This document shows, one piece after another, positions 1,654 through 16,916 of a stretch of DNA of 32,222 nt. The stretch's first letter is position 1; every line of letters begins with the position of its first letter. Both the position numbers and the translations under genes were made by a program. The DNA is from Methanobacteriota archaeon (GTDB taxonomy: Archaea > Thermoplasmatota > Poseidoniia > Poseidoniales > Poseidoniaceae). The notes beneath the pieces were generated by a model, which saw only the letters and a program-made list of their open reading frames with translations, made no database searches and was not told where the DNA came from. The stretch lies in assembly GCA_002719815.1 (NCBI GenBank), contig PBET01000016.1, positions 16,514-48,735 of the forward strand, written 5' to 3'.

Positions 1654-2697
1654 TCATTTAGCCAGATTGCCGTATTGTGTGTGAATGTATTCCTTGTATT
1701 GACCAGATGTTATCGAATCGGTCCACGCTGTGTTGAGACGATACCATTCTATGGTTTCTGACAAGCCTGTAGCCCAATCGATTTCCGGCTTCCATCCTAG
1801 CACGCTGTTGGCCTTCTCATATCCCATCGCATATCTTCGATCATGACCAGGTCGATCGCTGACATGCTTAATCAATGACTCATCTGCATGTATTTGAGAA
1901 AGAATGTTTCGAACGATGGTAATGTTCTCTTGTTCGTTGTTTGCTCCAAAATTAAACACCTCTCCAGTCTCAATTCTTCCAACAAATAATGCGAGCATAG
2001 TGCATAGAATTCCATTCGCGTGGTCTTCGACATGAATCCAATCACGAACCTGTTTTCCGTCTCCGTAAAGGGGTAGCTTCCTGTTGTTAAGCGCATTAAG
2101 GGTCATCAAGGGAATGAGCTTCTCTGGGAACTGACGTGGTCCGTAATTGTTGGAGCATCTCGTTATGACTGCGGACACTTTGTGTGTATTAACAAATGAC
2201 TGAACGAGCATATCAGATCCAGCTTTGGATGCTGCATATGGGTTCTGTGGGTTAAGAGGCGTATTTTCCGTGAAAGGGTCGTCATTCGGCCCCAAGGAAC
2301 CGTATACTTCGTCGGTTGAAACGTGAACAAAGTGAATATTTTGTCCTTGCTGGTTGCATGCAAGAACGCTTTCAAGAAGTACACGTGTCCCATCAATGTT
2401 GGTTTCTATGAACGGTTGCACAGAGTTGATTGAGCGATCAACATGGCTTTCAGCTGCAAGGTGGAGGATGACATCGATTTGCTTGTCGTTGAGTATGTTG
2501 TGGATGAGTTCATGATCGTTGATTGAACCATGAACAAACGTGTAGCGCTCGTCCTCAACATCATTGAGATTTTCTGGATGCCCTGAATATGTCAAAGCAT
2601 CAATGTTGACAACTATTTCGACGCCAGGGATTGACAACGCTTTGCGTACGACATGATTTCCAATGAAACCACAACCTCCTGTAACAAGGATTCGCAT
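1654..2697 (-). CDS. rfbB: dTDP-glucose 4,6-dehydratase
   Basis: This short-chain dehydrogenase/reductase converts dTDP-glucose to dTDP-4-dehydro-6-deoxyglucose. It shows the NAD-binding GGCGFIGNH near the N-terminus, HLAAESHVDRSI, the catalytic STDEVYG triad region (Thr-Asp-Glu), the YAASKAG Tyr/Lys pair, and NNYGPRQFPEKLIP, all characteristic of RmlB/RfbB. The length of about 347 residues is normal for the family. A GTG three codons upstream (2706) is possible, but the ATG at 2697 fits better: it lies just after the stop codon of rfbA and is preceded by GGTGA. The two genes are therefore translationally close and form one operon on the minus strand. RmlC and RmlD are not in the window, so the product probably goes to the aminotransferase encoded at 4217-5359. 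Confidence 0.93.
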   Translation of the reverse strand: MRILVTGGCGFIGNHVVRKALSIPGVEIVVNIDALTYSGHPENLNDVEDERYTFVHGSINDHELIHNILNDKQIDVILHLAAESHVDRSINSVQPFIETNIDGTRVLLESVLACNQQGQNIHFVHVSTDEVYGSLGPNDDPFTENTPLNPQNPYAASKAGSDMLVQSFVNTHKVSAVITRCSNNYGPRQFPEKLIPLMTLNALNNRKLPLYGDGKQVRDWIHVEDHANGILCTMLALFVGRIETGEVFNFGANNEQENITIVRNILSQIHADESLIKHVSDRPGHDRRYAMGYEKANSVLGWKPEIDWATGLSETIEWYRLNTAWTDSITSGQYKEYIHTQYGNLAK

Positions 2698-2698
2698 T

Positions 2699-3478
2699 CT
2701 ATTCACTCACCGCTGGAAGCCATGGGCCTAAATTCCATTTTCGCATGAGGACGGATGTTTCAAGCAACGCATCAAGCGTTCCGCAATCGGCCCAATGAGA
2801 ATCAAAATGACATCCTTTTGCTAGATTCTTTTGCATAAATAATCTGTTAATATCCGTAATTTCCAATTCTCCGCGATTAGAATATCCCGTAGTTTCAAGG
2901 ATTTCATCAATCATATCGTAGACTCTTGGAGTATACATATACAGCCCAGTTATGGCAAGATTTGAATCCGATGCCTTGGGTTTTTCTTCCATGTTGACGA
3001 TTCTACCGTTCCCATCAATCCATGCTATTCCAAAGGAACCTGGATCATTTACTGGTTTCAAAAATAAGTAACAATCATGGGTATCATCTTCGAGAAATTC
3101 ATTTGCATGCGATTTCATGGATTGTTCGAATACATTATCGCCAAGTATCACTGCAACATTTCGTAATCCTACGAATCCTTTTGTTAATCGTAGTGCTTCC
3201 GCAATCCCACCGGCTTGTTCTTGGTATGCGTAACGGATGTCTAAGCCAAACCTGTGCCCATCGCCTAGCAGAGCAAAAAATGAATTGCCAGAATAGCCTC
3301 CGAGTACAATCATAATTTCTTTGATACCCATTCGGGCCAACGTTGCCACTGATTTGCAAATCATCGGTTCGTCGTACACTGGCAAAAGATGTTTGTTCGT
3401 TGACGTTGTAAGTGGCATTAAGCGTGTGCCCCAACCTCCTGCCAGAACGACGCCACAAATGTCTCTCGACTTTGGCAT
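2699..3478 (-). CDS. rfbA: Glucose-1-phosphate thymidylyltransferase (RmlA/RfbA family)
   Basis: The enzyme joins dTTP and glucose-1-phosphate to make dTDP-glucose, the first step of deoxysugar synthesis. The nucleotide-binding motif LAGGWGTRLMPLT and the substrate-contacting NKHLLPVYDEPMI are at the N-terminus, and VILGDNVF supplies the metal-binding Asp. GLYMYTPRVYDM and the GELEITDINR segment are also typical of the family. The length of 259 residues is slightly short of bacterial RmlA (about 290) and matches the shorter archaeal and bacterial nucleotidyltransferases of this group. It precedes rfbB in the same operon. Its promoter region is shared divergently with an unknown membrane protein gene and contains a perfect inverted repeat at 3502-3517. 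A related uridylyl or other NDP-sugar specificity cannot be excluded. Confidence 0.88.
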   Translation of the reverse strand: MPKSRDICGVVLAGGWGTRLMPLTTSTNKHLLPVYDEPMICKSVATLARMGIKEIMIVLGGYSGNSFFALLGDGHRFGLDIRYAYQEQAGGIAEALRLTKGFVGLRNVAVILGDNVFEQSMKSHANEFLEDDTHDCYLFLKPVNDPGSFGIAWIDGNGRIVNMEEKPKASDSNLAITGLYMYTPRVYDMIDEILETTGYSNRGELEITDINRLFMQKNLAKGCHFDSHWADCGTLDALLETSVLMRKWNLGPWLPAVSE

Positions 3479-3501
3479 GATTGTTCCAATAGTCTTACAT
3501 T

Positions 3502-3517
3502 TTTAGGTTTACCTAAA
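3502..3517. promoter_or_regulatory. Inverted repeat in divergent promoter (candidate repressor operator)
   Basis: TTTAGGT-TT-ACCTAAA is a perfect 7-base inverted repeat with a 2-base spacer. It lies in the 68-base gap between rfbA (minus strand) and the membrane protein gene (plus strand). An AT-rich TTTAAG/CTTAAA sequence at about 3517-3523 could serve as a TATA element for either direction, so a bound protein would block transcription. The core TTAGG-N4-CCTAA is shared with the site at 9225-9238 and recalls half-sites recognised by DtxR/IdeR-family metalloregulators. Regulator identity is inferred. Confidence 0.5.
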
Positions 3518-3546
3518 TTTAAGTAGAAACGCCTAGTGGAGGTAAT

Positions 3547-4254
3547 GTGGGAACAAAGAATAGATTCCAACTTTCCTCGGTGCTTAACAAGAATTTTGTC
3601 ATCGATTTGGTTGAGCACATCTCTCCTTTCTTGATGTTCATTCTATTATTCGCTCCACATGTATCCTATGTCGCACCAATTGTAATGGTAATGATACTCG
3701 CCTACCGAAATATTTTGAGAGAAAGTAGGATTTTACATAACAGCCGTTTTTGGTTCCTTGGGTTTGTGCTGTACTGTCTCGCAATTGCGATCAATGTTAA
3801 CGAAAGCGTGAGCAATGGACTGATTATGTTGACGATATGTTTCATGGTGGTCCTGCTCTCAGAATCAAATCAGTTACCAGCAACAACACTTTATTCGAAC
3901 ATGATGATAGGTTTGGTAATAACGCATGAAATACTGCTTTGTCTGTTTACAGAGTTTAGCATTGGGAGTCTTCTGATTCTCCTCGTTCTTGGGATTTTGT
4001 TGAATTATGTTAGGTTAGAAACTGACTCGCAAACGATGGGAGTTCTGTTTGGTTGTTTCGTTGGCGTTCATGCTGTGGGTTGGACACTTTCAGGAGATCC
4101 ATTTGTTAACACAGCATTTGAAATCGACGAAATAGTTCGAAATTGGATTAAATTCATCAGCGCACCTATATTGGGTGTATTGGTGTTTTATGGAACCAAA
4201 TTCACTCTTGAGTTATTCAATCAAGTGGAAGATAAAGTGTTTGAAGAATCTTAA
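3547..4254 (+). CDS. Unrecognised multi-pass membrane protein
   Basis: I do not recognise this 235-residue protein. It is very hydrophobic, with about six or seven probable membrane segments (around residues 27-50, 68-86, 90-106, 117-135, 137-152, 162-180 and 198-218). Charged loops such as YRNILRESRIL lie between them. The start is a GTG preceded by GGAGG at 3539-3543, a strong ribosome-binding sequence at unusually short spacing. Its 3' end overlaps the end of the convergent aminotransferase gene by 38 bases. Its position inside a dTDP-sugar gene group suggests a role in glycan assembly or export, such as a polymerase- or flippase-like function, but nothing in the sequence shows this. Divergent transcription from rfbA suggests shared regulation. 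Confidence 0.65.
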   Translation: MGTKNRFQLSSVLNKNFVIDLVEHISPFLMFILLFAPHVSYVAPIVMVMILAYRNILRESRILHNSRFWFLGFVLYCLAIAINVNESVSNGLIMLTICFMVVLLSESNQLPATTLYSNMMIGLVITHEILLCLFTEFSIGSLLILLVLGILLNYVRLETDSQTMGVLFGCFVGVHAVGWTLSGDPFVNTAFEIDEIVRNWIKFISAPILGVLVFYGTKFTLELFNQVEDKVFEES

Positions 4255-5359
4255 CAATGTACTCAATATCATCTTCATTCATTGAAAGGTGTAGAGGTAA
4301 TCGAATGAGTGATGAAGCCGTTTTGGATGTTATTGGTAGACTCTCAGGAGTGTACCCCAGTTCTTTCCCAACAGGCGATTCATGAAGAGGCACGTAGTGG
4401 ATTACTGCTTGGATTTGGTTTTCATTCAAATGAAGCCGTAACCGGTCAGCCTCCTGAGAGTTACTTAGAATGATTGCAAACATGTGAGCATTATGCTCAC
4501 AACCAGCAGGCTCTCGTAGGATGCGTAAAATCCCCCGTTCCTCCATTGGTTTGAGTAAACGTTCATAGTAATTCCAGAGTTTTAATCTACGGGATAAATT
4601 TTCATTCACTTGTTCAAGTTGAGCGCAAAGAAAAGCTGCTTGCAGTTCACTCGGATAGAAGGACGATCCTACCACTTGCCAGTTGTACTTATCGACAAGG
4701 CCTTTGAAAAATGCACTGCGATTTGTTCCCCGTTCCCAGACCATCTCTGCTTTTTCAACATCATCCCGATTGTTAATGATAAGACAACCTCCGAGGCCTG
4801 AATGTATGTTTTTTGTTTGGTGGAAGGAAATAGTTCCAAATCGAGTGTGTGTGCCAAGGGACTTGCCGTTCCACTTCGCACCCAATCCCTGTGCAGCATC
4901 CTCAATGCAGACGAGATTGTGCATTTCGCAGATTTCATTGATTCGAGCGTAATCATTTCCAAATCCCGCGTAGTCAACAGCCACAATCCCTTTTGTGTTC
5001 TGGTTAATTTTTCTTTCAAGATCGTTCAAATCTAACAACATGGTGTTTTCATCAACCTCGCAAAATACTGGTGTGGCGCCAGTTCGCATAATTGACGAGG
5101 CACTGGTCACAAAGGTGTAAGATGGTACGAGAACCTCGTCACCGGGGCCAAATCCTGCTAATAGAGCAGCCATTTCCAATGCTCCAGTGCAGCTATGCGT
5201 GAGAAGAACTCTCTCAGCCCCGAGAATTTTTTCTAACATCTCTTGAACACGTTTTGTGAATGCACCGTTACCCGAGAACTCTTGTGAAGCGAATACTTCA
5301 TTGACGTAGTCCTTTTCGTTGCCAGTAAGGAATGGGATGTTAAACTTGACACTGCGCAC
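4217..5359 (-). CDS. DegT/DnrJ/EryC1-family sugar aminotransferase (WecE/FdtB-like)
   Basis: This is a PLP-dependent transaminase expected to aminate C4 (or C3) of dTDP-4-dehydro-6-deoxyglucose. The N-terminal KFNIPFLTGNEKDYV, the LTHSCTGALEMAALL cofactor-phosphate region, EDAAQGLGAKWNG, and the internal-aldimine lysine in SFHQTKNIHSG resemble WecE-type enzymes, which form dTDP-Fuc4N. An in-frame TTG at 5380 would add seven residues that look foreign to the family. The GTG at 5359 gives a start close to the usual domain edge. The gene is on the same strand as rfbAB but is separated from them by the convergent membrane protein. Together they could supply an amino-deoxyhexose donor. The exact stereochemistry of the product (Qui4N, Fuc4N or a 3-amino sugar) cannot be told from sequence. 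Confidence 0.85.
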   Translation of the reverse strand: MRSVKFNIPFLTGNEKDYVNEVFASQEFSGNGAFTKRVQEMLEKILGAERVLLTHSCTGALEMAALLAGFGPGDEVLVPSYTFVTSASSIMRTGATPVFCEVDENTMLLDLNDLERKINQNTKGIVAVDYAGFGNDYARINEICEMHNLVCIEDAAQGLGAKWNGKSLGTHTRFGTISFHQTKNIHSGLGGCLIINNRDDVEKAEMVWERGTNRSAFFKGLVDKYNWQVVGSSFYPSELQAAFLCAQLEQVNENLSRRLKLWNYYERLLKPMEERGILRILREPAGCEHNAHMFAIILSNSQEADRLRLHLNENQIQAVIHYVPLHESPVGKELGYTPESLPITSKTASSLIRLPLHLSMNEDDIEYIVKILQTLYLPLD

Positions 5360-5406
5360 ATAATGACGTATGATGCACAATTATTGATTGTTTTGAGGGC
5401 AAAAAG

Positions 5407-6597
5407 ATGGATGTTTCAGGGAAGAAGTTGATGATATTAGGAGCGGGGCATCATCAAGTCCCACTCATACGAACAGCAATCAATCTTGGTCTTGAAACGC
5501 ACGTATGCTCTATTGCAGGAGACTATCCAGGAATTGCAATAGCACCTAATTTTCATGAGGTAGACATCTCGAAGCCTCAAGCAGTACTTCAAATTGCACG
5601 AACGATAAGTCCTGACGGGATCCTAACAACAGCGACCGATGTATGTTTGGAAAGTATCGGTCTTGTTGTCGATGAATTGAATCTTCCAGGATCAGGTTAT
5701 GAAACAAGTTCTTCATGCCTGAATAAGGTGCTCATGAAGCGAAAACTACTGCAATCAGGTGTGCCTACTGCCCACTATAGGGTCGTTAATGATGTGAAGA
5801 GTGCAATTGATTTTTTCAACAATCAAAATGGACCATGCGTCATCAAACCTGCTGACTCTTCAGGTTCTCGTGGTGTTAACAAAATCGCTGACGTGGAAGA
5901 TGTTCAGCATGCATTTCAATCTGCGCTAAACTTCAGCAAAAGCGGCACTGTGTTGGTTGAAGAGTGGCTTGAGGGTGAAGAATTTGGTGCTCAAGCAGTT
6001 GTTGAAGGCGAACAATGCAAACTTCTCATACTCCATAGCGATGTTACCACTGCACCTCCTCGTCGTATTCCCCTTGGACATGGATGCCCACATCCAAATG
6101 AAGCAGAATTGATTGAAGTTGTTCGCAAAATAGTCGTCGATGCGATCGCATCCCTCGATATCAAAAACACCATCTCAAATGTTGATTTCATACTAACAGA
6201 AAACGGTCCAAAAATTATAGAATTGACATGCAGGATGGGTGGTACAAGGTTGCCAGAGGTCTGTGGCACATATTGGGGGGTTGACTTTTACGCGTTAGCG
6301 ATTCATTTGGCACTTGGTCAAAGAACACAATTATCTCCAACCCCGCTAGGTAAACCAAACGCGGCCCATAATTTGATTTTAGATCGAGAGGGAACAGTGA
6401 TGAGCATGGGTCAAATAAGTGAGGAATATAATCATGAAATTTACTTCAGAAAAGGCGATTGCATACGTCTAAATTCTGCACAACAAGCAGAATTAGGGTA
6501 TATTCAATTGACCGGAGATGGTTCATTATCCGTTATTCAAGAATTGGTTAACGAAGCAAATCGATTTACAGACAGCGTTCAACTCCTGGAGGATTAG
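5407..6597 (+). CDS. ATP-grasp domain carboxylate-amine ligase
   Basis: A 396-residue ATP-grasp enzyme. An N-terminal Rossmann-like domain (KLMILGAGHHQVPLIRTA) is followed by the grasp domain, with CVIKPADSSGSRGV (ATP-phosphate loop), VLVEEWLEGEEFGAQAVV, and metal ligands in NVDFILTENGPKIIELTCRMGG. Enzymes of this fold form amide or peptide bonds by way of an acyl-phosphate. The overall shape resembles PurK/CarB-like and amino-acid ligases, but the substrate cannot be assigned. GAGGG at 5395-5399 is a plausible ribosome-binding site. A WbqC gene begins one base after the stop, so the two are co-translated. With the adjacent sugar aminotransferase, a likely role is attaching an amino acid or other acid to the sugar amine. 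That role is inferred. Confidence 0.82.
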   Translation: MDVSGKKLMILGAGHHQVPLIRTAINLGLETHVCSIAGDYPGIAIAPNFHEVDISKPQAVLQIARTISPDGILTTATDVCLESIGLVVDELNLPGSGYETSSSCLNKVLMKRKLLQSGVPTAHYRVVNDVKSAIDFFNNQNGPCVIKPADSSGSRGVNKIADVEDVQHAFQSALNFSKSGTVLVEEWLEGEEFGAQAVVEGEQCKLLILHSDVTTAPPRRIPLGHGCPHPNEAELIEVVRKIVVDAIASLDIKNTISNVDFILTENGPKIIELTCRMGGTRLPEVCGTYWGVDFYALAIHLALGQRTQLSPTPLGKPNAAHNLILDREGTVMSMGQISEEYNHEIYFRKGDCIRLNSAQQAELGYIQLTGDGSLSVIQELVNEANRFTDSVQLLED

Positions 6598-6598
6598 T

Positions 6599-7276
6599 AT
6601 GACCATTGTGGCGATCTCTCAATCGAATTATCTTCCATGGAAAGGATATTTCCAACTCATTTCAAGTGCGGACATCTTCGTATTCTATGATACAGTTGAT
6701 TTCACCAAGCGAGATTGGCGCAGCAGGAACAAAATCATTGGTCCAAAAGGATTCCAATGGATGACGATTCCCGTTGGATCAAACCGTGGAAAATCCATTG
6801 ATGAGGTGCAACTACCTATGGGAGAATGGCGCAACAACCATCTAGAAACAATAAGGAGGAATTACGCAAAGGCTCCATTCATAAACGATGTATTGAACAT
6901 CATCACCCCTGCTTACCATGACCATTCCATCAAAACACTGTCGGATTTCAACCAATCACTCATTCAACGGATATGTGAATACCTAGGTATTGAGACCGTA
7001 TTTCGAAATTCTTCGGAATTCCATCTAAAGGATGACCGAGTGGATAGATTGATTTCGATTTGTGAACAACTTGACGCAACAATCTATTTGAGTGCGCCTG
7101 CAGCAAAAGAGTACATTACAAATGAATTTGATCATATCGATATCGGACTTCAATGGATGGAATATGGCCCATATGAGCCATATGAACAAAACGTCGATTC
7201 TTTTTCCGATTATGTATCAATTCTTGACACAATTGCAGCCTTAGGGCCGGGAACCCGCAAAAATATTCTACTCTGA
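6599..7276 (+). CDS. WbqC family protein
   Basis: The N-terminus IVAISQSNYLPWKGYFQLI, followed by SSADIFVFYDTVDFTKRDW and RSRNKIIGPKG, is the hallmark of the WbqC family, found in O-antigen and surface-glycan loci. Length is 225 residues. The reading frame extends 27 codons further upstream, inside the ATP-grasp gene. The ATG at 6599 is chosen because GGAGG lies at 6588-6592 and the family motif begins right after it. The biochemical role of the family is not firmly established; proposals centre on acyl or aminoacyl modification of sugars. Here it is coupled to an ATP-grasp ligase and faces a sugar aminotransferase, which agrees with such a role. The stop overlaps the stop of the convergent glycosyltransferase by 9 bases. 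Confidence 0.88.
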   Translation: MTIVAISQSNYLPWKGYFQLISSADIFVFYDTVDFTKRDWRSRNKIIGPKGFQWMTIPVGSNRGKSIDEVQLPMGEWRNNHLETIRRNYAKAPFINDVLNIITPAYHDHSIKTLSDFNQSLIQRICEYLGIETVFRNSSEFHLKDDRVDRLISICEQLDATIYLSAPAAKEYITNEFDHIDIGLQWMEYGPYEPYEQNVDSFSDYVSILDTIAALGPGTRKNILL

Positions 7277-8224
7277 ATCCTTACTTTCGAAGGTTGAATC
7301 CTGAATAATATAGTTAGGCACTCCACGTGATTCAATATAGATTCGACCGATATATTCCCCAAGAATTCCAAGGAAAAGTAGGTTCAGTCCTCCGAAGAAA
7401 GAGGTCACAAACACAATTGACGTCCATCCTGGAGCAACTCGATCCTGAAGTATATAGTTCACGATAGAATATCCAGCAATGGCGATTGAAAAAAGTCCAA
7501 ACATGATGCCAAGAATAATGGCAAGACGAATCGGTTTGATGGAGTATGTCATTATTCGATCGCTGGCAAGTTTGAGGGATTTTTTGAATGTGTATCCTGT
7601 ACTCCCTGCTGTCCTTGCCTCACGTTCGAGATCAACAGTACTGTATGGTACTCGTAGAGAATAGAGCATTGAAAATGGTGTACCAGTATGTTCCTTGACA
7701 TCGCAAATCTGCTTGACAACACCTTGCCTCATTACCCTGAATGCTCCGAGATGAGGATCGACCTTGAATGGAACCAGAAGATTGGATGTAGCAGCAAACA
7801 TCCGACTAAACAGACGTTTCCTTAACGTATCAGCACGTCGGGTTCGTCGAGCGATTGCCAATGATGTTCCATCCTCCAACATTCGCTCCACGAGAAGGGG
7901 GATATGCTCTGGGCGATCTTGAAGATCTGAATCCATTACGGCGACAAGATCTGCGCTCGTTGAGCGCAATCCGGCTAGGATTGCCCGATGCTGGCCAAAA
8001 TTTCCTGCGAGTTTGATTACTTCTACTCCGTCATATTTTTCCCTCATACGCAATGCAAGGTTGTAGGATTCGTCCACTGACCCATCATCAATCATAATTA
8101 ATCGGACGGCCTTGAACGTATTTTCTAACGTGCTGAAAACCGTTTCACATAGCTTTTCTACAACCTCTTCATCGTTGTAAAGGGGAACCACGATATCTAG
8201 TTTTAACATACTCTTTTTCGTCAT
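7268..8224 (-). CDS. Family 2 glycosyltransferase, DPM1/GtrB/ArnC-like, with C-terminal membrane anchor
   Basis: This 318-residue enzyme probably transfers a sugar from a nucleotide donor to a polyprenyl phosphate at the inner face of the membrane. Visible features are the N-terminal VPLYNDEEVVEKL, IDDGSVDES, the metal-binding DSDLQDRPEHIP, and the acceptor-region GAFRVMRQGV. Two hydrophobic helices lie near residues 232-255 and 267-290, as in GtrB-type proteins. GGAG at about nine bases upstream supports the ATG at 8224. The gene follows the flippase-like gene by 37 bases on the same strand, a common pairing in glycan assembly. It overlaps wbqC tail to tail. The donor sugar could be the amino-deoxyhexose made by the neighbouring enzymes, but this is inferred. 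Confidence 0.88.
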   Translation of the reverse strand: MTKKSMLKLDIVVPLYNDEEVVEKLCETVFSTLENTFKAVRLIMIDDGSVDESYNLALRMREKYDGVEVIKLAGNFGQHRAILAGLRSTSADLVAVMDSDLQDRPEHIPLLVERMLEDGTSLAIARRTRRADTLRKRLFSRMFAATSNLLVPFKVDPHLGAFRVMRQGVVKQICDVKEHTGTPFSMLYSLRVPYSTVDLEREARTAGSTGYTFKKSLKLASDRIMTYSIKPIRLAIILGIMFGLFSIAIAGYSIVNYILQDRVAPGWTSIVFVTSFFGGLNLLFLGILGEYIGRIYIESRGVPNYIIQDSTFESKDSE

Positions 8225-8261
8225 TCATACCACTCCATATCACCAAATTGTCATCTTTAAT

Positions 8262-9191
8262 TCACTCGTTTTCGAGGCTGTTCGCTGTTAGTAAATCCGA
8301 CTGAATAAAGATACCAGGGACTCCAGAGAGGATAACTGACATAGAAAGGGCTAACCCAGAAATTAAGCAGACGCTCTCATCGACGTTTAGGAGCGCTCCA
8401 GTGCCGACATAACTGGCTTCGCGCACCCCGATTCCCCCTACTGAAATAGGGAGAGTAGAGAACAAAGCAATCGCAGGTGTGACCAAGGCGATCATAAAAG
8501 CAGCATCCAATCCAGCTAGATCGTAAGCCACGATTACAGGGACGGATAGGGATACAATCTGAAACAAAACAGATAATCCAAACGCTCCCATGAGCATCTT
8601 GTAGTTGGCATACGTGCGAATATAGGTAAGTGTTCTATTGAATAATGCATTTTCATCCGTTGAATTAAGAACGAATTTCGAAAGCAAATAGAGAATACAG
8701 CCACTGACGAAGACAGCAGTTAACCAATGCCAAGGTAATGAAAAGGGTACGTCGAAAATGAAGACACAAACGGTCAAGAAAACAAGGCTGAAAAGTCCTA
8801 AAACCCTCTCCGTCGCAGCAACAAGAAACGATTCTGCTCGACTTGTTCTTGTTACAATTTTCATATGTTCAATTCTGAGTAAATCTCCTCCTATAGCAGA
8901 GGGCAGAAATATCGAACCATATGCAGACAAGGCGTATCCTTTGGTAGCATCAACAAGTGAAAGGTTTGCAATAGGACTGAAAGCAAGACTTGATCGCAAG
9001 CCTCCAAAGAATGGGCGTAGAACTGAAACGATTCCTATAGCTAGAAACGTCCCTATGCTTAGAGATGATGCTAGATAGGTTAAATCAGATATGTTGAGGA
9101 AATAGAACAATGCAACGAACGAAAGGAGTGGAAGTACCAAGACAATTGCAGTCCTGGTTCTCGCTTTCTCTGCATCAAACATAGTTCTCAT
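8262..9191 (-). CDS. Flippase-like membrane protein (lysylphosphatidylglycerol synthase TM domain / UPF0104 family)
   Basis: A 309-residue protein made almost entirely of membrane helices, with about eight segments. Family marks include RPFFGGLRSSLAFSPIANLSLVDATKGYALSAYG split across a loop, LPSAIGGDLLRIEHMK, and STLPISVGGIGVREASYVG near the C-terminus. These GG- and R-containing loops are typical of the AglD/MprF-N-terminal family of membrane proteins linked to lipid-bound substrate transfer. The gene is first in a two-gene minus-strand unit with the GT2 gene, so the pair may make and move a lipid-linked sugar. A second ATG (9182) is possible. Its promoter is shared divergently with the PhnD gene and holds an inverted repeat at 9225-9238. 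The transported molecule is unknown. Confidence 0.82.
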   Translation of the reverse strand: MRTMFDAEKARTRTAIVLVLPLLSFVALFYFLNISDLTYLASSLSIGTFLAIGIVSVLRPFFGGLRSSLAFSPIANLSLVDATKGYALSAYGSIFLPSAIGGDLLRIEHMKIVTRTSRAESFLVAATERVLGLFSLVFLTVCVFIFDVPFSLPWHWLTAVFVSGCILYLLSKFVLNSTDENALFNRTLTYIRTYANYKMLMGAFGLSVLFQIVSLSVPVIVAYDLAGLDAAFMIALVTPAIALFSTLPISVGGIGVREASYVGTGALLNVDESVCLISGLALSMSVILSGVPGIFIQSDLLTANSLENE

Positions 9192-16475: not shown

Positions 16476-16916
16476 ATGAAGAAGGTCATGGCAGTAGGCG
16501 TTTTTGACCTCCTACATGCTGGTCATCTTCACTATTTGGAACAGGCAAAAGCGCTTGGTGACCACCTTACTGTCGTTGTTGCACATGATGATACTGTTCG
16601 AAAGCGAAAGCACGAGCCCGTAACAAATCAAGATCTCCGCCGTCGAATGGTCGAAGGCCTCAAGCCCGTTGATGTCGCTTGCATCGGCAATCCACCCGAA
16701 GTCCCCATCTTCGATATTCTTCCAGAAATTCAGCCATCGGTTATCGCTCTAGGCTATGACCAAGAACACGCTGAAGATCGTATTCGGTCAGCTTTGGAAG
16801 AACGCGGATATTCTTCGATTGACGTTGTGCGTGTTGAAGGCCTAAGTGACGACTTGGATGGTACTCGAAAGATCATTGCTCGAATTGTTGAGCGGGCGAA
16901 AGGGGGTGAATTTTGA
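16476..16916 (+). CDS. ribL: Archaeal FAD synthetase (RibL-type nucleotidyltransferase)
   Basis: A small nucleotidyltransferase of about 146 residues that, in archaea, adenylates FMN to FAD. The cytidylyltransferase-like signature is GVFDLLHAGHLHYLEQAK, with the HxGH ATP site, and KRKHEPVTNQDLRR and ALGYDQEH follow as expected. Glycerol-3-phosphate cytidylyltransferase shares this fold, but the operon with ribB, riboflavin synthase and ribH makes RibL the better call. The ATG at 16476 is preceded by GGGTGA (16465-16470), an ideal archaeal ribosome-binding site; a TTG at 16458 in the same frame is less likely. The stop TGA overlaps the next ATG by one base. Riboflavin kinase, needed to make FMN, is not in the window. 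Confidence 0.88.
   Translation: MKKVMAVGVFDLLHAGHLHYLEQAKALGDHLTVVVAHDDTVRKRKHEPVTNQDLRRRMVEGLKPVDVACIGNPPEVPIFDILPEIQPSVIALGYDQEHAEDRIRSALEERGYSSIDVVRVEGLSDDLDGTRKIIARIVERAKGGEF

Follow-up and report, generated by a model that had tools for sequence, protein, structure and literature searches.

A sugar-gene cassette of Poseidoniaceae and WbqC as a candidate amino-acid:amino-sugar ligase with a predicted BshC-like fold

A block of eight genes in the genome of an archaeon of the family Poseidoniaceae combines genes for a nucleotide-linked amino sugar with two adjoining genes, one encoding an ATP-grasp protein and the other WbqC, and raises the question of which of these two products acts on the sugar amine, what it attaches and where the decorated sugar goes. 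The block lies in a stretch of 32,222 nucleotides (henceforth the window; positions 16,514 to 48,735 of GenBank contig PBET01000016.1), which is a portion of contig C16 of an incomplete 1.57-Mb assembly. A sequence-only reading of the window had suggested that the ATP-grasp enzyme could add an amino acid, or some other acid, with WbqC acting in the same or a later step, and had proposed an N-acylated sugar on an archaeal surface glycan. Our results support that reading in part, and we lean towards the interpretation that the product of the block is a lipid-linked N-aminoacylated 4-amino-4,6-dideoxyhexose.

The predicted fold of WbqC

WbqC belongs to a widespread protein family; it is termed functionally uncharacterized in a passage of PMC5532660, and a literature search by its Pfam accession, PF08889, returned no paper. 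Its sequence had no credible match among solved structures, and a search for it in viral contigs gave no match to the search patterns. A model of the protein predicted with AlphaFold2 (AF2) from 58 sequences had a mean predicted local distance difference test score (pLDDT) of 94.8 and a predicted template modelling score (pTM) of 0.92. With this model as the Foldseek query, the sole match at an e-value of 0.001 or less was 4wbd, the bacillithiol synthase BshC (e-value 2.5e-4, probability 1.00). Comparison by VIA superposed 216 of the 225 WbqC residues on this structure with a Z of 14.8 and a root-mean-square deviation of 3.0, the next entry being at Z 7.4. Class I synthetases, pantothenate synthetase and PPAT are not claimed as relatives of WbqC, as their structural Z of 7.4 or less falls in the range that VIA calls common.

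As described in part of PMC5372718, BshC joins cysteine to glucosamine-malate (GlcN-malate). The predicted fold is common to the two proteins over nearly the whole WbqC chain, and an amide between an amino acid and an amino sugar is the chemistry that we propose for WbqC; BshC (PF10079) differs in being about 540 residues long and in belonging to another pathway, whereas WbqC has 225 residues and no sequence-profile similarity to it. This strong structural match, which is new here, suggests that the likely job of WbqC is to place an amino acid onto a sugar. In an alignment of seven WbqC sequences from archaea, E. coli and other bacteria, the invariant positions include Q8, P13, G16, Y17, D25, D31, R43, N44, Y89 and D210. 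The fold link, along with O-antigens of known structure, makes WbqC directly testable as an amino-acid:amino-sugar ligase and, if it is one, N-aminoacyl sugars would become predictable from genomes.

WbqC in bacterial gene neighbourhoods

Ten E. coli O-antigen regions were viewed; DegT aminotransferase matches were counted in 171 genomes, 60 of which were listed. The O123/O186 region was found with a third WbqC query, and its DegT protein in turn retrieved the O121 region, the wbqC of which was not retrieved by two other WbqC queries; we take the O-antigen of O121 to be the same as that of Shigella dysenteriae D7. The gene order is rfbB, rfbA, wzx, DegT, WbqC, hypothetical, GNAT and MaoC in O123/O186, and rfbB, rfbA, DegT, WbqC, GNAT and wzx in O121. 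According to parts of PMC10609480, 4-amino-4,6-dideoxyglucose (Qui4N) bears an N-[(S)-3-hydroxybutyryl]-D-alanyl group in E. coli O123 (review table) and an N-acetylglycyl group in S. dysenteriae D7. For N-acetylglycyl, a passage of another review (PMC3210612) refers to E. coli O121, and for acetyl to O116; a reference title gives O7 as Qui4NAc. No WbqC is annotated in the seven other viewed regions with related DegT or VioA genes, including O7 (vioA, vioB), two of O116 type, O49 and O39. Together with the structures, these regions indicate that WbqC is present where the sugar amine bears an amino acid, whereas O7 and O116, the simple N-acetyl cases checked, lack it. Given the predicted BshC fold and the O121 and O123 contexts, WbqC is a better candidate for the amino-acid ligase than the ATP-grasp protein to which it had been made an accessory, while the proposal of an N-acylated sugar stands.

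A wider set of 74 WbqC loci included 12 archaeal ones and two that were dropped for very short matches (L097 and L102), leaving 60 bacterial loci, many of which are from Aquimarina and hence not independent. Control loci, centred on the initiating sugar transferase (PF02397), came from 39 of the same genomes: the first-listed match was taken in 40 of the 46 genomes having one, and L142 was then excluded because WbqC was present. A second sample came from 394 genomes belonging to a single order, 31 of which had WbqC by the Pfam model; it comprised 29 loci, excluding G150 and G132, which were already covered as L098 and L057, and one of the 29, L194, coincides with L075. A DegT gene was located within 5 kb of WbqC in 39/60 bacterial loci as against 3/39 controls (Fisher 6e-9), a result unchanged with independent queries, and in 26/29 loci of the second sample; within 8 kb the figures were 52/60 and 3/39. 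This strong association supports the earlier proposal of a pathway to a dTDP-4-amino-4,6-dideoxyhexose that is N-acylated ahead of lipid loading. We typed 79 of the 96 bacterial DegT matches, mostly one per locus and hand-chosen, together with that of the window, and 57 of these 80 were WecE-like at an e-value of 1e-100 or less. Acetyltransferases of the NeuD/PglB/VioB type were within 5 kb of WbqC in 37/60 loci compared with 4/39 controls, and in 5/29 loci of the second sample. An ArnC-like GT2 was within 3 kb in 33/60 and 0/39, respectively, and in 2/29.

The archaeal cassette and its proposed pathway

Every gene named in the sequence-only reading proved to be a real open reading frame with a family match (Table 1), and the unit of aminotransferase, ATP-grasp and WbqC genes is real, its arrangement being identical in 10/10 genomes with WbqC among 98 related genomes. 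All eight genes are present in six loci (the window, L019, L020, L021, L023 and L026), the four others being truncated by contig ends, and L036, from a different collection, is another complete locus. The retention of this arrangement across four genera suggests more than chance. The ATP-grasp profile also matched in 10/98 genomes, nine of them in common with WbqC, and both mismatches are at contig ends: the contig of G006 stops right after WbqC, and that of G019 starts within the ATP-grasp gene. The earlier list of cassette members overlooked the small membrane protein, which belongs to the block; it has homologues at the same position in L019, L020, L021, L023 and L026, and short proteins can be read at this position in L036 and L039.

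Table 1. The eight genes of the cassette (window bases 1654-9191)
Gene product	Coordinates	Strand	Family evidence and remarks
RfbB, dTDP-glucose 4,6-dehydratase	1654..2706	-	TIGR01181, 422.8 bits (above cut-off 365.1)
RfbA-like sugar-1-phosphate nucleotidylyltransferase	2699..3478	-	PF00483, 162.5 bits; 8-base overlap with rfbB
Membrane protein, no assigned family	3547..4254	+	Constant cassette member; no Pfam or NCBIfam match
WecE-type DegT aminotransferase	4217..5359	-	WecE equivalog NF008687, 462.8 bits (above cut-off 375); open frame reaches 5380
ATP-grasp ligase, 396 residues	5407..6597	+	PF01071/PF02655/PF13535
WbqC, 225 residues, proposed amino-acid:amino-sugar ligase	6599..7276	+	PF08889, 229.3 bits (above curated cut-off 21.3)
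GT2 of ArnC/GtrB/PgfS type (polyprenyl-phosphate sugar transferase)	7268..8224	-	phmmer matches to solved members
PF03706 membrane protein, possible flippase	8262..9191	-	PF03706, 73.2 bits (cut-off 33.4)

The ATP-grasp stop codon (TAG, 6595-6597) is separated from the wbqC ATG (6599-6601) by a single T, exactly the one-base spacing described before. The ATP-grasp and aminotransferase genes, which had been said to face each other, are instead divergent, with starts about 47 bases apart, and the WbqC and GT2 genes are convergent with a 9-base overlap. The probable start of the aminotransferase is the GTG at 5359, where the orthologues in L023 and L026 have M, and the interval 5359-8224 formerly given for the cassette thus excludes this gene. 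The reported absence of rmlC and rmlD holds for the frames listed in the window, the genome not having been searched for them.

From gene content, conservation, co-occurrence, predicted folds and the E. coli contexts we infer the reactions, the order in which the two ligases act, the identity of the attached group as an amino acid, the flippase role and the acceptor. RfbA and RfbB would make dTDP-4-keto-6-deoxyglucose, and the WecE-type DegT enzyme would aminate it at C4, probably giving the dTDP derivative of 4-amino-4,6-dideoxygalactose (dTDP-Fuc4N). The nearest solved chains of the DegT protein, 6blg (e-value 8e-92) and 4piw (1e-90), are dTDP-4-amino-4,6-dideoxygalactose transaminases; its score of 404 bits against TIGR02379, the WecE dTDP-Fuc4N transaminase subfamily, is below the cut-off of 434.85. 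WbqC, as a small enzyme of the BshC fold, would couple the 4-amine of the dTDP-4-amino-4,6-dideoxyhexose with an amino acid, and the ATP-grasp ligase would add a second acyl group or amino acid, substituting for the acyltransferase (GNAT or NeuD/VioB) of bacterial WbqC clusters; alternatively, the two might act in the reverse order. The clusters of E. coli O121/S. dysenteriae D7 and O123/O186 resemble the cassette in having rfbB, rfbA, a C4-type DegT and WbqC in one block. They differ in that a GNAT follows WbqC, whereas in the cassette an ATP-grasp gene precedes it, and in that Wzx/Wzy build a polymer, where the cassette has an ArnC-like GT2 and a PF03706 protein along with its WecE-type aminotransferase.

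The GT2 protein matched sll0501 (5ekp) with an e-value of 5e-44 and ArnC (9bhc) with 8e-37 over about 305 residues in phmmer searches, and scored below the cut-offs of both the NCBIfam ArnC model PRK10714 (135.4 bits, cut-off 529) and PgfS (193.9 bits). Its resemblance to GtrB and ArnC makes a polyprenyl-phosphate sugar its likely product, formed by transfer of the decorated sugar to polyprenyl phosphate, and the PF03706 and small membrane proteins might then aid its crossing of the membrane. A comparable logic is found in the lipid A 4-amino-arabinose pathway, ArnB-ArnA-ArnC-ArnE/F-ArnT, which like the cassette involves a 4-aminated, N-acylated nucleotide sugar, an ArnC-like GT2, a membrane carrier and a transferase of the GT-C type. 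The cassette is unlike it in its dTDP-6-deoxy sugar, in having ligases instead of a formyltransferase, in its archaeal membrane and in its probable protein acceptor.

A candidate for the last transferase is encoded about 8 kb from the cassette on the same contig, namely a PMT-like (PMT_2, PF13231) protein (L028:8700-10358). This gene was detected in 12/98 genomes, comprising 9/11 with the cassette (WbqC or ATP-grasp) as against 3/87 without it (Fisher 7e-9). A gene for a Fea1-like (PF07692) lipoprotein is divergent from it in 9/9 searched genomes holding both; on the window's own contig the pair is found outside the window (C16:8700-11952, L028), and the same arrangement is seen in L104, L106 and L039. 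Two PMT_2 genomes among 60, G007 and G015, yielded no Fea1-like lipoprotein at an e-value of 1e-40 or less. Fea1-like lipoproteins with a complete N-terminus display a stalk of about 70 residues rich in Ser, Thr and Asp after the lipobox, and this stalk is missing in 7/7 Fea1 homologues of a sister family without the PMT_2 gene. The PMT-like transferase is therefore a likely user of the lipid-linked sugar, and the stalk of the neighbouring lipoprotein its likely acceptor, which would narrow the 'surface glycan' of the sequence-only reading to a polyprenyl-phosphate sugar serving a PMT-like protein glycosyltransferase. If so, a concrete route of glycosylation, leading from the sugar to a candidate acceptor, would be at hand for the marine Poseidoniales, and the patchy occurrence of the cassette could bear on recognition by viruses or grazers.

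Secreted acidic proteins are also encoded near the cassette (L036:3089-4741, L039:6012-7679 and L021:17029-17963), those of L036 and L039 having repeated SSD stretches and Asp-rich repeats, and could be further acceptors.

A broader view, which we hold only tentatively and with more doubt than confidence, is that the WbqC family consists of widespread small ligases of the BshC fold that place amino acids on the amines of nucleotide amino sugars. In Poseidoniaceae the tandem with an ATP-grasp ligase, a two-part (dipeptide-like) acyl group on Fuc4N, a dedicated PMT-like enzyme and Ser-rich lipoprotein stalks would then amount to archaeal O-glycosylation with a peptidyl-sugar.

The ATP-grasp ligase and competing explanations

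Several observations weigh against the pathway proposed above or parts of it. Profile comparisons by hhalign of 58 WbqC with 13 BshC proteins, using the whole sequences and the Rossmann part in both local and global modes, gave nothing significant (P 0.086 and 0.25), and 0/58 WbqC proteins matched the BshC Pfam model PF10079 at an e-value of 1 or less. What we claim is thus a shared predicted fold and not family membership. Between the WbqC of the window and those of O123 and O121, identity is only 26-32%, and the window protein may therefore differ from them in substrate. No DegT gene was found within 8 kb in 8/60 and 1/29 bacterial WbqC loci, and the best NCBIfam match of the RfbA-like protein, RmlA TIGR01207, was at 190.6 bits, under the equivalog cut-off of 360.65. 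The PMT-like gene is present in three genomes without the cassette, and the stalk was compared across two taxonomic families, so that ancestry is confounded with the presence of PMT. Finally, at L039, an archaeal locus, WbqC and GT2 stand with a short membrane protein and no DegT, ATP-grasp, rfbAB or PF03706 gene adjoins them, and the genome concerned, G098, has DegT and ATP-grasp elsewhere without WbqC. There, one contig (L103:12-3344) carries a WecE-like DegT gene with a PMT-like neighbour, and on another the C-terminal part of an ATP-grasp protein is followed by GT2, rfbA, rfbB and a GtrA protein (L105:13440-17007). Accordingly, WbqC and GT2 form a module that is separable from that of the sugar genes.

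Together, the two G098 segments, L103 and L105, amount to another form of the sugar cassette, one that has no WbqC.

The AF2 model of the ATP-grasp protein (mean pLDDT 88.5) confirmed the ATP-grasp fold, and VIA placed it closest to 4dim (Z 36.4, 382 residues), an Anaerococcus protein titled phosphoribosylglycinamide synthetase, and near the L-amino acid ligase 3vot (Z 32.7). Homologues at an e-value of 1e-40 or less were detected in 7/395 Bacteroidota genomes; they are directly beside DegT in L258 and L259 and near one in L261, adjoin rfbA at a contig end in L257, and adjoin NeuD and GT2 in L260 and L262, while L263 has no DegT, rfbA, NeuD or GT2 beside its homologue. These loci tie the ATP-grasp family, too, to amino-sugar genes without needing WbqC, and the association of each ligase with an aminotransferase suggests that acylation takes place twice in the pathway of the archaeal cassette. 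The expected co-occurrence with DegT was thus borne out broadly for WbqC, and for the ATP-grasp protein in the form of DegT and rfbA/rfbB neighbours in some non-archaeal loci.

One Bacteroidota cluster (L258:7552-17298) contains both ligases: its ATP-grasp gene is paired with a WecE-like DegT, and another DegT, which adjoins WbqC, is found about 8 kb further along.

An alternative is that the ATP-grasp protein alone attaches the amino (or other) acid to the sugar amine, with WbqC serving another step, for instance capping the amino acid or acting with the GT2 on the lipid-linked sugar. The structural closeness to L-amino acid ligases, the homologues adjoining DegT without adjacent WbqC (L258, L259) or standing with rfbA and rfbB in G098 (L105), the WbqC of L039 with GT2 and no DegT, and the frequent ArnC-like GT2 near bacterial WbqC all fit such a division of labour. 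We nevertheless consider it unlikely, given that O121 and O123/O186, with their aminoacyl-Qui4N, have WbqC and no annotated ATP-grasp in the viewed stretches, and that the predicted fold of WbqC is that of an amino-acid:amino-sugar ligase. Moreover, the cassette's ATP-grasp family was found near 0/60 and 0/29 bacterial WbqC genes, which runs counter to a general ATP-grasp-WbqC link and suggests that the pair is special to the archaeal cassette. Another ATP-grasp type (PRK12767-type, carbamoyl phosphate synthase-like; representative L046:13172-14140), which the window's ATP-grasp profile missed and clustering found, was within 5 kb of WbqC in 4/60 and 2/29 loci.

It is also conceivable, though in our estimate improbable, that WbqC moves the amino acid from a pre-activated donor, such as an aminoacyl-tRNA or carrier, and does not activate it with ATP, in the manner of the FemAB-like VimA. 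The fold does not decide the donor, and there is a precedent in VimA, proposed in part of PMC7468200 to place Ser or Gly on the amino sugar linking proteins to A-LPS in Porphyromonas and Tannerella. As set out there, that Wbp/Vim linking sugar is like our proposed product in carrying an amino acid on an amino-sugar amine joined to protein, and differs in the GNAT/FemAB-like nature of VimA, in its uronic acid sugar and in its linkage. WbqC itself has no GNAT or FemAB match; its sole strong structural match is to BshC, which PMC5372718 describes as a ligase, and the title of entry 4wbd names a complex with citrate and ADP. That both ligases use a non-sugar substrate, in a PurD- or dipeptide-ligase-like role, and owe their place in the cassette to chance or regulation is very improbable: the nearest solved relatives of the ATP-grasp protein are indeed named phosphoribosylglycinamide synthetase or L-amino acid ligase, but it scores 55.9 bits against the PurD equivalog TIGR00877 (cut-off 288), the ligases co-occur with sugar genes, and bacterial WbqC is strongly linked to DegT.

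The first 10 kb of the window have a G+C content of 0.41-0.44, compared with 0.46-0.49 in the remainder. Adjoining the cassette (window:9250-11400) is a gene for a PhnD-like substrate-binding protein of 716 residues, apparently with two similar domains in tandem. The Poseidoniaceae cassette and gene order also occur in L031 (CALDQY010000088.1), titled 'uncultured Rhodobiaceae bacterium', which points to a mislabelled or mixed genome bin.

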